A stretch of 64,000 bases of DNA. It comes from a bacterium. GTDB lineage: Bacteria > Hinthialibacterota > Hinthialibacteria > OLB16. The stretch covers positions 1 to 64,000 of the forward strand of contig JAJVIK010000017.1 of assembly GCA_022072055.1 (NCBI GenBank), read 5' to 3'. Below, in pieces: positions 55,562 through 60,587 of this stretch. Numbering within the stretch: the first letter of the stretch is position 1; each line of letters opens with the position of its first letter. The notes below the pieces were generated by a model that worked only from the letters and a program-made list of their open reading frames with translations, did no database searches and had not been told where the DNA came from. Position numbers and translations under genes: made by a program.

Positions 55562-56836
55562 GTGTCCGACCTTTCCCGACGTGAATTCCTGATTGGTTCA
55601 AGCGCCACTTTGGCGGCGACTGTCTGGAGCAGGGAGGCGGCATCCGACCCGACCCGACGGCTCCGTCACGCGATCATCGGCGTGGGCGGGCAAGGGACCA
55701 ACCATGCCAAGACCCTGTCGAAGATGACCGACCTCTGCGAGATTGTGGCCATCGCGGATGTGGATCCCGAGCGCCGGGAGAGGGCCGCGAAGGTCCTTTC
55801 CGAGCGCGCTCCCATCCAGGTGTATGAGGATTTCCGGAAACTCCTCGAAGATCCTTCCATCGATTCGGTGACCGTGGCCACACCCGACCACTGGCATACC
55901 CCGGTGGCGCTTCATGCCCTTCAGGCCCGGAAGCATGTGTATGTCGAAAAACCGTGCAGCCACAATGCGCGCGAGGCGCTCCTCTTAGCCGAAGCCGCCA
56001 AGAAGACCGGCAAGTGTGTTCAGCATGGAACCCAAGGCCGAAGTGGAAAGGGTTTCATCGACGGGGTGAAATTCCTGCGCGAGGGTGGGATCGGCAAGGT
56101 CCGCCTCGCCAAGGCGATCAACCACCAGTTCCGCGAGCCCATCGGGCGCGAACCGGACTCCGATCCCCCGCCGGGGGTGAACTACGACCTTTGGCTCGGC
56201 CCGGCTCCCAAGCGCCCGTTCTCGAAGAACCGCTGGCACTATAACTGGCATTGGTGGTGGGACACCGGCACAGGGGACATTGGGAATGATGGAGTTCATC
56301 AGGTCGATCAGGCGCGCTGGGGTCTGGGGGTGGGGCTCCCGAAGGCGGTCACCGCCAGCGGGGGGCAGCTGTTCTATGACGATGACCACGAAACTCCCGA
56401 CACGCAGATCGTGACTTACGAATACGATGACTGCTATCTGGTCTACGAGATGCGCTTGTGGACCGATTACCCGCTGGAGGGTCATGACAACGGGGTGATC
56501 TTCTATGGGGATGGTGGGATTGTGGAGTTCGGCCGTAAGGGGTGCATTGTGACCCGGATCGGGAAAGAGCCGGAGCCGCTTGGCGGCGGCTCGGACTTCA
56601 CCGAGAACATTCGGAATTTCTTGGTTTGCGCACGTGACAACAACCCGGCGGGGTTGAATGCCCCGATTTCGGAAGGCGCGCTTTCAACAATCCTTTCGCA
56701 TCTTGGGAACATCGGGGTCCGAGTGGGCCGCCGTCTGCGCCTCGATCCGGAAACCTGCCGGATCCTGGATGACCCAGAAGCGGACTCGATGCTCGGACGG
56801 ACCTACCGGGAGGGGTATGAGCTGCCGGTGGTGTGA
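55562..56836 (+). CDS. Tat-exported Gfo/Idh/MocA-family oxidoreductase
   Basis: A 424-residue protein starting at GTG with AGGAGG 9 bp upstream. Its N-terminus MSDLSRREFLIGSSATLAAT is a twin-arginine signal, so it is exported folded with its cofactor. The Rossmann motif is AIIGVGGQGTNHAKTL, then VTVATPDHWHTPVALHALQA and HVYVEKPCSHN with the EKP lysine. HWWWDTGTGDIGNDGVHQVD is the substrate-domain D-G-H motif. Exported members act on sugars or glycosides in the periplasm. It is the fourth family member in the window and ends 43 bp before the PIN module. Confidence 0.93.
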   Translation: MSDLSRREFLIGSSATLAATVWSREAASDPTRRLRHAIIGVGGQGTNHAKTLSKMTDLCEIVAIADVDPERRERAAKVLSERAPIQVYEDFRKLLEDPSIDSVTVATPDHWHTPVALHALQARKHVYVEKPCSHNAREALLLAEAAKKTGKCVQHGTQGRSGKGFIDGVKFLREGGIGKVRLAKAINHQFREPIGREPDSDPPPGVNYDLWLGPAPKRPFSKNRWHYNWHWWWDTGTGDIGNDGVHQVDQARWGLGVGLPKAVTASGGQLFYDDDHETPDTQIVTYEYDDCYLVYEMRLWTDYPLEGHDNGVIFYGDGGIVEFGRKGCIVTRIGKEPEPLGGGSDFTENIRNFLVCARDNNPAGLNAPISEGALSTILSHLGNIGVRVGRRLRLDPETCRILDDPEADSMLGRTYREGYELPVV

Positions 56837-58276: not shown

Positions 58277-58365
58277 TGGGGTAGGCGGGGATCGAACCCG
58301 CAAGGCGTGGGCATCACGCCACCCGATTCCAGGTCGGGCGTGTTTGCCAGTTTCACCACTACCCC
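58277..58365 (-). tRNA. Class II tRNA with leucine-like body; folded anticodon UGG (Pro), C at position 33
   Basis: An 89-base tRNA gene. The acceptor is 7 bp (GGGGTAG with CTACCCC, discriminator A73), the D-arm is 3 bp (GTG/CAC) with an 11-base loop AAACTGGCAAA as in tRNA-Leu, the T-arm is GCGGG-TTCGATC-CCCGC, and the variable arm is long (GGCGTG paired with CACGCC). The anticodon stem CCCGA/TCGGG encloses the loop CCTGGAA, so positions 34-36 read UGG and position 33 is C, not the near-universal U. Shifting the loop one base gives GGA (Ser) but breaks the stem. CCA is not encoded. Charging with leucine is plausible since LeuRS reads the body and A73, while UGG is a proline anticodon; a pseudogene is also possible. 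Confidence 0.82.
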
Positions 58366-58466: not shown

Positions 58467-58880
58467 TCACGATGTTCCTCCTTCCGCTGTGCGGTACAAA
58501 TTGTCACCCCCCATGCTTATCAAACCCGCATCCTTCAATCGCCACAGCTCAGAAGAAATGACTTGCCGCAATGGGGTTTTCCCAGAAGCCTTAAACCCTC
58601 TCGATTCAACTGCCTCGAAGATTTCCTCTCGCTTCAAACCGTTGCGCGAAGAACCAACGACACTCAAAATAGTCTCCCGAAGTCCGGTGTGCGACCCTTT
58701 GCCCTTACGCCTGAGTCGCGCGCGCGGGGTGGTTGTCTGGATCGATTGGGGTTCCGAACGCGAGTCGCTGATTTCGGCAAGCAGGCGTGAGAGAACGCGC
58801 TCCTCCTCCTGCCCCTCGGCAATTTTCTTCTTGGCCTTCGAAATCTGGGCGTTTAGGAGGCGGATAGTTTCTGAATGCAT
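58467..58880 (-). CDS. Coiled-coil protein with C-terminal winged-helix-like domain
   Basis: A 137-residue protein from the ATG at the complement of 58878-58880, chosen because AAGGGG lies 8-12 bp upstream, unlike the longer frame. The N-terminal half is a coiled coil (AQISKAKKKIAEGQEEERVL). Residues ~75-137 look like a winged helix: RETILSVVGSSRNGLKREEI, then LRQVISSELWRLKDAGLISM. This suggests DNA binding. It is divergent from the 58956 gene with a symmetric repeat between them, so it could be its regulator. I do not recognise the family. Confidence 0.6.
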   Translation of the reverse strand: MHSETIRLLNAQISKAKKKIAEGQEEERVLSRLLAEISDSRSEPQSIQTTTPRARLRRKGKGSHTGLRETILSVVGSSRNGLKREEIFEAVESRGFKASGKTPLRQVISSELWRLKDAGLISMGGDNLYRTAEGGTS

Positions 58881-58907
58881 TTCCATTTCCCCTTCGCCCG
58901 GGATGGG

Positions 58908-58941
58908 CTTAGGCTTAGTAAAGCCGATCACTAAGCCTAAG
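58908..58941. promoter_or_regulatory. Shared divergent operator: perfect 12-bp inverted repeat built of CTTAG units
   Basis: CTTAGGCTTAGT (58908-58919) and ACTAAGCCTAAG (58930-58941) are perfect complements separated by 10 bp. Each arm contains the unit CTTAG twice (direct repeat), and another AGGCTTAGA follows at 58961-58969. It sits between the start codons of the winged-helix gene (58880, minus) and the small basic gene (58956, plus), the position of an operator for a divergent regulator. An attenuator hairpin is an alternative. Confidence 0.55.
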
Positions 58942-58955
58942 TCAAGGGGCTTTCC

Positions 58956-59153
58956 TTGCGAGGCTTAGATTTGGGTTCTGGAAAAAAACCCGTGCATGCA
59001 GTGCTTAAGAGACCATCGGGTCCAAAGGCGGAAGCTGTTAAAATCGAAGGCGATTGGGAATCCGCAATGGCGGAGGCATTGAAGGCCAAGCGCCCTAAAG
59101 GGGGCTGGCCCGACAAGCCACCAAAGGCGAAGGCGAAGAGGAAAAAGGCCTAG
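58956..59153 (+). CDS. Small basic protein with GDW motif, toxin-antitoxin-like context
   Basis: A 65-residue lysine-rich protein by TTG start (AAGGGG 6 bp upstream). EAVKIEGDWESAMAEALKAK then PKGGWPDKPPKAKAKRKK gives a conserved-looking GDWE..M..ALK..KPK.GWP core that I recall from small accessory proteins, some beside toxin genes; function unknown. Its 5' end and repeat are described above. The gene opposite is the winged-helix protein. Start choice is uncertain. Confidence 0.5.
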   Translation: MRGLDLGSGKKPVHAVLKRPSGPKAEAVKIEGDWESAMAEALKAKRPKGGWPDKPPKAKAKRKKA

Positions 59154-59216: not shown

Positions 59217-59284
59217 CCGTCGAGAATTCCTGCAAAAAGGTGTAGGATAGTCTTGGGAAATGGACTGTGTCGTGAGGTGGTCCC

Positions 59285-60109
59285 ATGAAGAAGCGACAGG
59301 CGCCAACAACGGAACGATTGACAAAGGACACTCTGACCTTGGCGTTGGAGGGGGAAATTCCTCTTCAGGCTTTCTCCGAGGCGGTAAGAAACCTCTCCCT
59401 AATGATTGAATCCCTGACCCAGGAAATCTCCAGCCCTGATTCGGTGGACTGGATCATTCAGGACTTGAGCGCGGGGAGCGCGACGGCCACGATCCGGGGG
59501 CTCCCTCGCACCAAAGCGGGAAAAAGGACTATTGGAAAGGTTATCGCGGGGTACGAGGAGGTTGCCACATGTCTCCAGGAAGGGAGAAAGATCCCTTTCA
59601 GCGAAAGTGTAAGCGCCCCCGCGTTGGCCATCAGCGGCATCCTTAACGGAAAGGTGAAATCGGTTCGGTTTGAGACTTCGGATTTTGATGCGCAAGTGGA
59701 AAAGCCGGTTGCTACCACGCCATCCGGCTTGGTGGAAGGGGGGCTGCCTCCCAAGTCTTTCGTCAAAGTCCATGGGGCCATTCGAGGTCGGATTCAGAGC
59801 ATTTCGAACCGTGGCTCGCTCCGCTTCACCCTTTACGATATGAACGATGACCATGCGATCGGTTGCTACCTTAAACCGGGAAGCGAGGATCTCCTCCGCG
59901 CGTCTTGGGGCAAGGTCGCCGTCGTCCATGGTGTCATTCGCCGGGACACTCGCACGGGGAAAGCGTTCAGCGTGCGCGAAATCACTTCACTCAAGACTCA
60001 AAGGGAAAGAACTCCCGGAGCATGGCGTGGAATTGTTGGGATAGCTCCAGCCAAGATTTCCGGCGCAAGTTCTGAAACAGCGGTGAGGATTGGCAGAGAT
60101 GCCGGGTGA
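59285..60109 (+). CDS. Unassigned protein with OB-like C-terminal domain, partner of PIN gene (third module)
   Basis: A 274-residue protein. The N-terminal region (~15-90) has TLALEGEIPLQAFSEAVRNL and VDWIIQDLSAGSATATIRGL, a mixed alpha/beta pattern; the second half (~155-235) is beta rich: FVKVHGAIRGRIQSISNRGS, RFTLYDMNDDHAIGCYLKP, VVHGVIRRDTRTGKAFSV, like an OB fold that binds single-stranded nucleic acid. Its ATG is 69 bp downstream of a palindrome. It overlaps the PIN gene by 11 bp. As the PIN gene's partner it may be the antitoxin or a targeting subunit; I do not know a name for this pair. Confidence 0.6.
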   Translation: MKKRQAPTTERLTKDTLTLALEGEIPLQAFSEAVRNLSLMIESLTQEISSPDSVDWIIQDLSAGSATATIRGLPRTKAGKRTIGKVIAGYEEVATCLQEGRKIPFSESVSAPALAISGILNGKVKSVRFETSDFDAQVEKPVATTPSGLVEGGLPPKSFVKVHGAIRGRIQSISNRGSLRFTLYDMNDDHAIGCYLKPGSEDLLRASWGKVAVVHGVIRRDTRTGKAFSVREITSLKTQRERTPGAWRGIVGIAPAKISGASSETAVRIGRDAG

Positions 60110-60587
60110 ATCCGGAAGAAGGCGGATCTATTGGGACAGTTGCCTCTTCATCGATCTTCTTGAGAACACTGTGGAAAGAGGAAGGATCCTCGAGACCCTC
60201 CTGGAGGATTGTGAGAACGGGAAGTTTGAGATATTCACGTCTGTCGTGACCATTGCCGAAGTCGCGTATGCAAAACAAGAAAAGGACAAAGGAAGACTGG
60301 ACGCTCAGATAGCGAGGCGGATTCAGAGATTTTGGCATGTTGAATCTCCGGTCAAGCTCGTTGAGGTTCATTCAGGGATAGCTTCAGAAGCGCAATCGTT
60401 GATCCGCAAATGCCTCTCCGCGAAGAAGAAACTGACCCCAATGGACGCGCTCCATTTGGCAACGGCAAGGAGCGTGGATGTTGAGGAGATTCACACCTTT
60501 GACAATCAACTGGAGAGTCTCAGCAGGGTTTTGGGAATTCGGATCGTGCCTCCAAGCCCAAGCAAGTTGCTCTTTGAGGATTCATAG
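60099..60587 (+). CDS. PIN-domain ribonuclease (VapC-like), third module
   Basis: A 162-residue PIN protein. All four acidic positions are seen: D in RIYWDSCLFIDLLE, E in VTIAEVAYAKQE, D in LTPMDALHLATA, and D in IHTFDNQLESLS. It is more like standard VapC/PIN proteins than the two toxin-first copies and ends SPSKLLFED. It follows its partner with an 11-bp overlap (ATG 60099). A TTG at 60090 is an alternative start. The complete active site suggests an active nuclease. Confidence 0.82.
   Translation: MPGESGRRRIYWDSCLFIDLLENTVERGRILETLLEDCENGKFEIFTSVVTIAEVAYAKQEKDKGRLDAQIARRIQRFWHVESPVKLVEVHSGIASEAQSLIRKCLSAKKKLTPMDALHLATARSVDVEEIHTFDNQLESLSRVLGIRIVPPSPSKLLFEDS

Follow-up and report, generated by a model that had tools for sequence, protein, structure and literature searches.

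The window, a stretch of 64,000 nucleotides from a bacterial genome (G000), contains a class II tRNA gene with a leucine-type body and a proline anticodon, and the family to which this tRNA belongs is very probably transposon cargo. Our main reading, held at a probability of roughly 0.55, is that it is a transposon-borne tRNA that accepts leucine and reads proline codons; we infer both the charging and the decoding. The initial annotation missed the key point, namely the carriage of the tRNA by a clade of IS1595-family transposons.

ARAGORN reported a class II tRNA-Pro(TGG) as the sole tRNA in the window, and the gene matched Rfam RF00005 with 53.3 bits (E 3.8e-10), a score that falls inside the range of 43.6-59.4 bits spanned by the class II tRNAs of the same genome. 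These results confirmed the intact class II cloverleaf with a leucine-type body and A73 that had been described from the sequence. The acceptor stem has 7 bp, the D stem 3 bp (with a loop of 11 nt), the anticodon stem 5 bp plus a G26-U44 pair, the variable stem 6 bp and the T stem 5 bp. The anticodon loop is CCUGGAA (C32 C33 U34 G35 G36 A37 A38), and an alternative anticodon frame was rejected because a shift of the loop by one base destroys the anticodon stem; the initial call of a UGG proline anticodon with C33 in the loop CCTGGAA therefore holds. A covariance model of the family, with the window included in its training set, gave the window tRNA 84.9 bits. The gene does not encode CCA, whereas most other tRNA genes of the genome do.

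Normal tRNA-Leu and tRNA-Pro genes, which the initial annotation had proposed to look for, are present elsewhere in the genome (5.86 Mb in 32 contigs, with 47 tRNAs). The five tRNA-Leu have the anticodons UAA, UAG, GAG, CAA and CAG and the tRNA-Pro have UGG, CGG and GGG, making the window tRNA supernumerary. The window tRNA is present in a single copy, and an integration site or a tRNA duplication was rejected as its origin because the genome holds no second copy. Another tRNA-Pro(TGG) of this genome (L049; G000:C18:28432-28505) is poorly paired and perhaps a pseudogene. In 13 genomes of the same class no DNA relatives of the window tRNA were found, and 60 other genomes gave no DNA match that was both close and full-length. 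An identity as a known gene of a phage or plasmid was rejected since the phage and plasmid collections gave no DNA match.

About 25 relatives of the window tRNA were found, with the anticodon UGG and rarely AGG or GGG. The search pattern, which combined a leucine-like D arm with TGG, was tested on the window. It matched 33 contigs of a viral collection. In 18 of these the match folds as a full class II tRNA with A73 and UGG; most of the others are tRNA-Leu genes that are split or broken. Of the 386 cellular genomes sampled, the pattern matched only the window's own, and it gave no match in 195 further cellular genomes. Control scans run to completion with an unchanged D arm returned no full tRNAs for TCG, four for TTG and four for other proline anticodons. 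G73, a glutamine feature, was present in three of the four TTG tRNAs. The recovery of 18 full tRNAs with TGG versus 0 with TCG and 4 with TTG indicates that UGG on a leucine body is not the product of random drift, and chance drift of the anticodon was rejected as an explanation. The relatives are mostly solitary and lie outside phage tRNA arrays. Contigs are called viral here because they come from the viral collection; host DNA may be among them, and we do not claim a phage-borne family.

Class II tRNAs with a leucine-like D arm and other anticodons also occur in the viral collection. Those with GUU (Asn) have U1-A72 and G73 (54 distinct, including L128, L130, L133, L143, and L147), and those with GUC (Asp) have G73 and mostly C38 (10 distinct, including L131, L182, and L211); these tRNAs with long variable arms are apparently class II tRNA-Asn and tRNA-Asp. 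Viral contigs also contain class II tRNAs that have a leucine body and an anticodon for a stop codon (TTA in L188 and L227, TCA in L157, CTA in L187) and are possible suppressor tRNAs; L157 and L187 have C33. In a Zixibacteria MAG, a tRNA with a leucine body and the Gln anticodon TTG (L054:4512-4593, minus strand) lies beside a tRNA-Leu(AAG).

One gene is common to the neighborhoods of the relatives, an IS1595-family transposase that usually adjoins the tRNA. The transposase of L105 matched PF12762 with 126 bits and PF12760 with 47 bits, and the transposase was detected in 14 of 22 contigs with NGG tRNAs versus 2 of 116 and 0 of 55 control contigs. The L108 element carries the transposase, an AlbA/Schlafen-like gene and a small ORF along with the tRNA, all enclosed by two inverted repeats with a perfect duplication of 8 bp. 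A matrix built from element ends was used to locate further complete elements, and five elements have the tRNA between inverted repeats and a perfect duplication of 8 bp (Table 1); in L325, L326, L327, and L332 both ends are present and no matching duplication is.

The association was also tested in an anticodon-neutral way, by a search with the transposase only followed by a tRNA finder blind to the anticodon. This search of the viral collection gave 42 loci, and a class II tRNA was found beside the transposase in nine of them, eight with UGG and one with AGG, three being new. Two further loci came from the family covariance model, L324 and, on a cellular contig, L407 (genome G220), both with UGG; because the model was trained on NGG tRNAs, these two finds are not fully anticodon-neutral. 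The tRNA-bearing transposases form one clade with the exception of a fragment (L125), and tRNA-free members are present within the same clade (L322 and L329). An outlier with the anticodon UGU lies near a more distant transposase (L174), and a decayed AGG copy lies between two ends in L194. When transposase loci were sampled in cellular genomes, the family model detected the tRNA in 1 of 20. The cargo of tRNA-bearing elements is varied (L319:6058-7509, L321:3491-4594, L325:7757-8305, and L326), with AlbA/Schlafen-HATPase, IrrE-like HTH protease, SocA/Panacea antitoxin-like, Bro-N and Clp-protease-like types.

Table 1. Features of the window around the tRNA gene and target duplications of complete tRNA-bearing elements
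Feature	Location	Strand	Remarks
Class II tRNA gene	58277..58365	minus (58365 to 58277)	leucine-type body, UGG, C33, A37, A73, CCA not encoded
Anticodon UGG (58329-58331) and C33 (58332)	58329..58332	minus	sequence read directly
Perfect 14-bp inverted repeat, 20-nt loop	58380..58427	minus	14 nt upstream of tRNA
ORF, 154 aa, coiled-coil plus winged-helix-like	58467..58931	minus	upstream of tRNA, same strand
Small basic ORF, 65 aa, K-EGDWE...ALK.KRP..GWP ("EGDWE")	58956..59153	plus	conserved in transposon family
Right-hand terminal inverted repeat CGGGAGTATATACTCTACGCAA	59198..59219	minus	17/22 identical to L108 end
Expected 8-bp target duplication TCGAGAAT	59220..59227		left partner not found
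8-bp target duplication TCTTTCCT	L319 (= L108)
8-bp target duplication CAGATTTG	L320
8-bp target duplication TAATTTTC	L321
8-bp target duplication CCATCGCC	L324
8-bp target duplication AAAAAATT	L335 (= L118)

Parts of such an element surround the window tRNA. The winged-helix-like ORF had a weak BLAST match to the tRNA-adjoining gene of L094 (E 3e-4, composition correction off) and no match in Pfam or NCBIfam; ORFs at the equivalent place and strand are present in L324 and L407, and their mutual similarity is weak. The "EGDWE" ORF matched small ORFs of L110, L307, L108, and L121 (E 2.8e-9 to 3.5e-4). Among 386 genomes it had a good score in only G000 and G220, and in G220 it occurs together with the transposase and the tRNA. 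The right-hand end scored 23.0 bits with a matrix from which the window was left out, and the runner-up in the 64 kb scored 13.0. The order of tRNA (minus), winged-helix-like gene (minus), small ORF (plus) and right end is identical in the window, in L324, a complete element of 2128 bp, and in L407. A left end was not found in the 64-kb window with the end matrix; a candidate at 55928 was rejected, having a low score and lying within a Gfo/Idh-like coding sequence. No match to the IS1595 transposase (PF12762) was found anywhere in G000. The missing left end and transposase indicate that the window holds a truncated passenger block, a remnant, and that its copy may be inert. The accessory location that had been assigned to the tRNA was right. 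Its placement in a toxin-antitoxin zone was partly right, with a PIN gene (60090-60587) located outside the right end of the element. Just beyond that end, a 274-aa ORF is followed by the PIN-domain gene (PF01850) in a toxin-antitoxin-like pair (59285-60587), and a defense-library search with the window genes gave no match.

The tRNA is structurally conserved in the family. Of the cloverleaf cells in 22 family tRNAs, 99.1% are paired, and compensatory changes, i.e., on both sides, are seen in 17 of 20 pairs; the compensation carries more weight than the 99.1% figure because most members were pre-filtered on folding. Variable arms range from 14 to 46 nt. Position 33 is U in 21 of about 25 members and C in four (the window, L105, L125, and L307), and G35 and G36 are invariant among the aligned members and the tRNAs found through the transposase. 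The hairpin upstream of the window tRNA has a folding energy of -29.9 kcal/mol (z -5.8), and the upstream stem was beyond every shuffle in 9 of 22 members, with several more coming close. Upstream hairpins of 11-14 bp, with loops of 18-21 nt and 8-28 nt before the tRNA, were observed in the window, L325, L331, L100, L123, L320, and L101; their structure recurs and their sequence does not.

Bacterial leucine determinants are A73, A15-U48, G18G19 and A20a, with neither the anticodon nor the variable arm needed, and bacterial proline determinants include G72, G15:C48, G35, G36, G37 and A73 (PMC9976931). The leucine elements A73, A15, U48, G18, G19 and A20a are invariant across the 22 aligned family tRNAs. 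The proline elements present in the family are G35, G36 and A73. Neither C1-G72 nor G15:C48 was found in any of the 22 (pair 1-72 is GC in 20 and GU in 2), and G37 is seldom seen; the window tRNA has G1-C72, A15, U48 and A37. The ProRS of G000 is of the bacterial type, with 618 bits to TIGR00409 versus 150 to TIGR00408. The retention of all leucine elements, the lack of the proline elements G72 and G15:C48 and the bacterial-type ProRS of the host make LeuRS the likelier charging enzyme, and the family tRNA is probably charged with leucine. A35 is common to leucine isoacceptors and is not needed for charging. Its replacement by G35 shows that the window tRNA is not a normal leucine isoacceptor. 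LeuRS ignores the anticodon, yet G35 and G36 are constant, suggesting a role for the anticodon in some other step, the simplest being the reading of proline codons. The majority of relatives with U33 and the unvarying G35-G36 argue for codon reading in the family, and we give about even odds that the family tRNAs would decode proline codons. Decoding of these codons by the C33 copy in the window is doubtful. Against good proline decoding, C33 in 4 of about 25 members and A37 rather than G37 in most are unlike good proline decoders.

Charging with proline would make the molecule a class II tRNA-Pro carried by a transposon and served by the host ProRS, or by an E-type ProRS in other hosts. G35, G36, G49 and A73 agree with this explanation, a review notes a G1-C72 tRNA-Pro charged by eukaryal/archaeal-like ProRS (PMC9976931), and other leucine-bodied tRNAs of viral contigs gained acceptor features that match their anticodons, U1-A72 and G73 with GTT (Asn) and G73 and C38 with GTC (Asp). 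It is nonetheless unlikely given that C1-G72 and G15:C48 occur in 0 of 22 members, G37 is missing in most, the leucine elements are all kept, and the G000 ProRS is bacterial. We also regard as improbable a non-decoding RNA, which might supply leucine to a non-ribosomal enzyme, act as a decoy for a modification enzyme or a toxin that cuts tRNA, or regulate the transposon. Such a role would fit the presence of C33 in four members (the window, L105, L125, and L307), the strong hairpin directly upstream in many, the absence of an encoded CCA from most, and the nearby PIN and Schlafen/AlbA-like genes, but no aminoacyl-transferase gene is a shared passenger, and the conserved anticodon and the U33 majority are left unexplained unless a partner reads the anticodon. 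The initial annotation had taken C33 as a sign of a non-decoding donor, a proposal weakened by U33 in 21 of about 25 relatives and by unvarying G35-G36 among the aligned members.

A decayed or chance tRNA-like sequence, e.g., a mutated copy of a host tRNA-Leu, would be in keeping with the single copy, the absence of a transposase from G000 and the lack of a close full-length DNA match in 60 genomes. This explanation is highly improbable, and for the family it is already refuted: the stems are all intact, 17 of 20 pairs are compensated, and the placement within transposons is conserved. The intact stems of the window tRNA, which the initial annotation took as an argument against a decayed gene, were confirmed.

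For a transposon-borne tRNA that accepts leucine and reads proline codons, the following mechanism is proposed. One IS1595 clade has, between terminal inverted repeats, a class II tRNA with leucine identity elements and a proline anticodon, often accompanied in the element by the "EGDWE" protein gene and the winged-helix-like gene. The host LeuRS would most likely charge the tRNA with leucine, and the charged tRNA would compete for CCN (Pro) codons, probably weakly in the window because of C33 and A37. The element could then cause Pro-to-Leu misreading, possibly controlled by the leader hairpin and by the neighboring regulator gene. That the clade keeps its own miscoding tRNA, with controlled Pro-to-Leu misreading, or its threat, regulating the element or acting on the host, is a tentative suggestion. 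Against the mechanism as a whole, Pro-to-Leu misreading should harm the host, and a benefit to the element is not visible. A recoding of proline codons to leucine was rejected. Of 279 CCA codons in the transposases, 132 align with Pro and 14 with Leu, and the alignment of transposase CCN codons with Pro in relatives indicates that the elements use no changed code.

The closest known case is the tRNA-ProX found in Streptomyces and Kitasatospora, which has a proline body, an Ala, Asn or Thr anticodon, its own ProRSx and A33, and mistranslates in E. coli (PMC11415595). Like the window tRNA, it joins the body of one amino acid's tRNA to the anticodon of another and has a base other than U at position 33. 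Unlike tRNA-ProX, with its proline body, A34 and partner ProRSx, the window tRNA has a leucine body, a proline anticodon and U34 and is transposon-borne; no partner synthetase was found among the annotated ORFs of the elements. The Sec/Cys hybrid tRNAs are likewise natural tRNAs of mismatched identity from genome mining, but they involve other amino acids and another structure, and no transposon link is mentioned (PMC11415595). The family resembles bacterial tRNA-Leu in the D-loop, A15-U48, G18G19, A20a, A73 and the long variable arm, and differs in having NGG rather than NAG or YAA, a variable arm that is often far longer (to 46 nt), a solitary location and usually no encoded CCA. The elements resemble IS1595-family insertion sequences in their ISXO2-like transposase (PF12762/PF12760), inverted repeats, 8-bp target duplications and passenger genes, and differ from the known ones in their recurrent tRNA gene cargo. 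No report of tRNA cargo in IS1595 elements was found in the open-access literature.

For annotation, a "tRNA-Pro(TGG)" call may be transposon cargo. A few bacteria are known to possess natural tRNAs whose identity is mixed. The purpose of such tRNAs becomes testable with a transposon clade in which one recurs as cargo and its anticodon persists among copies that have diverged strongly; the clade ties miscoding to a mobile element and provides many natural variants (U33 and C33; UGG, AGG and GGG) and a defined 2.1-kb element (L324).
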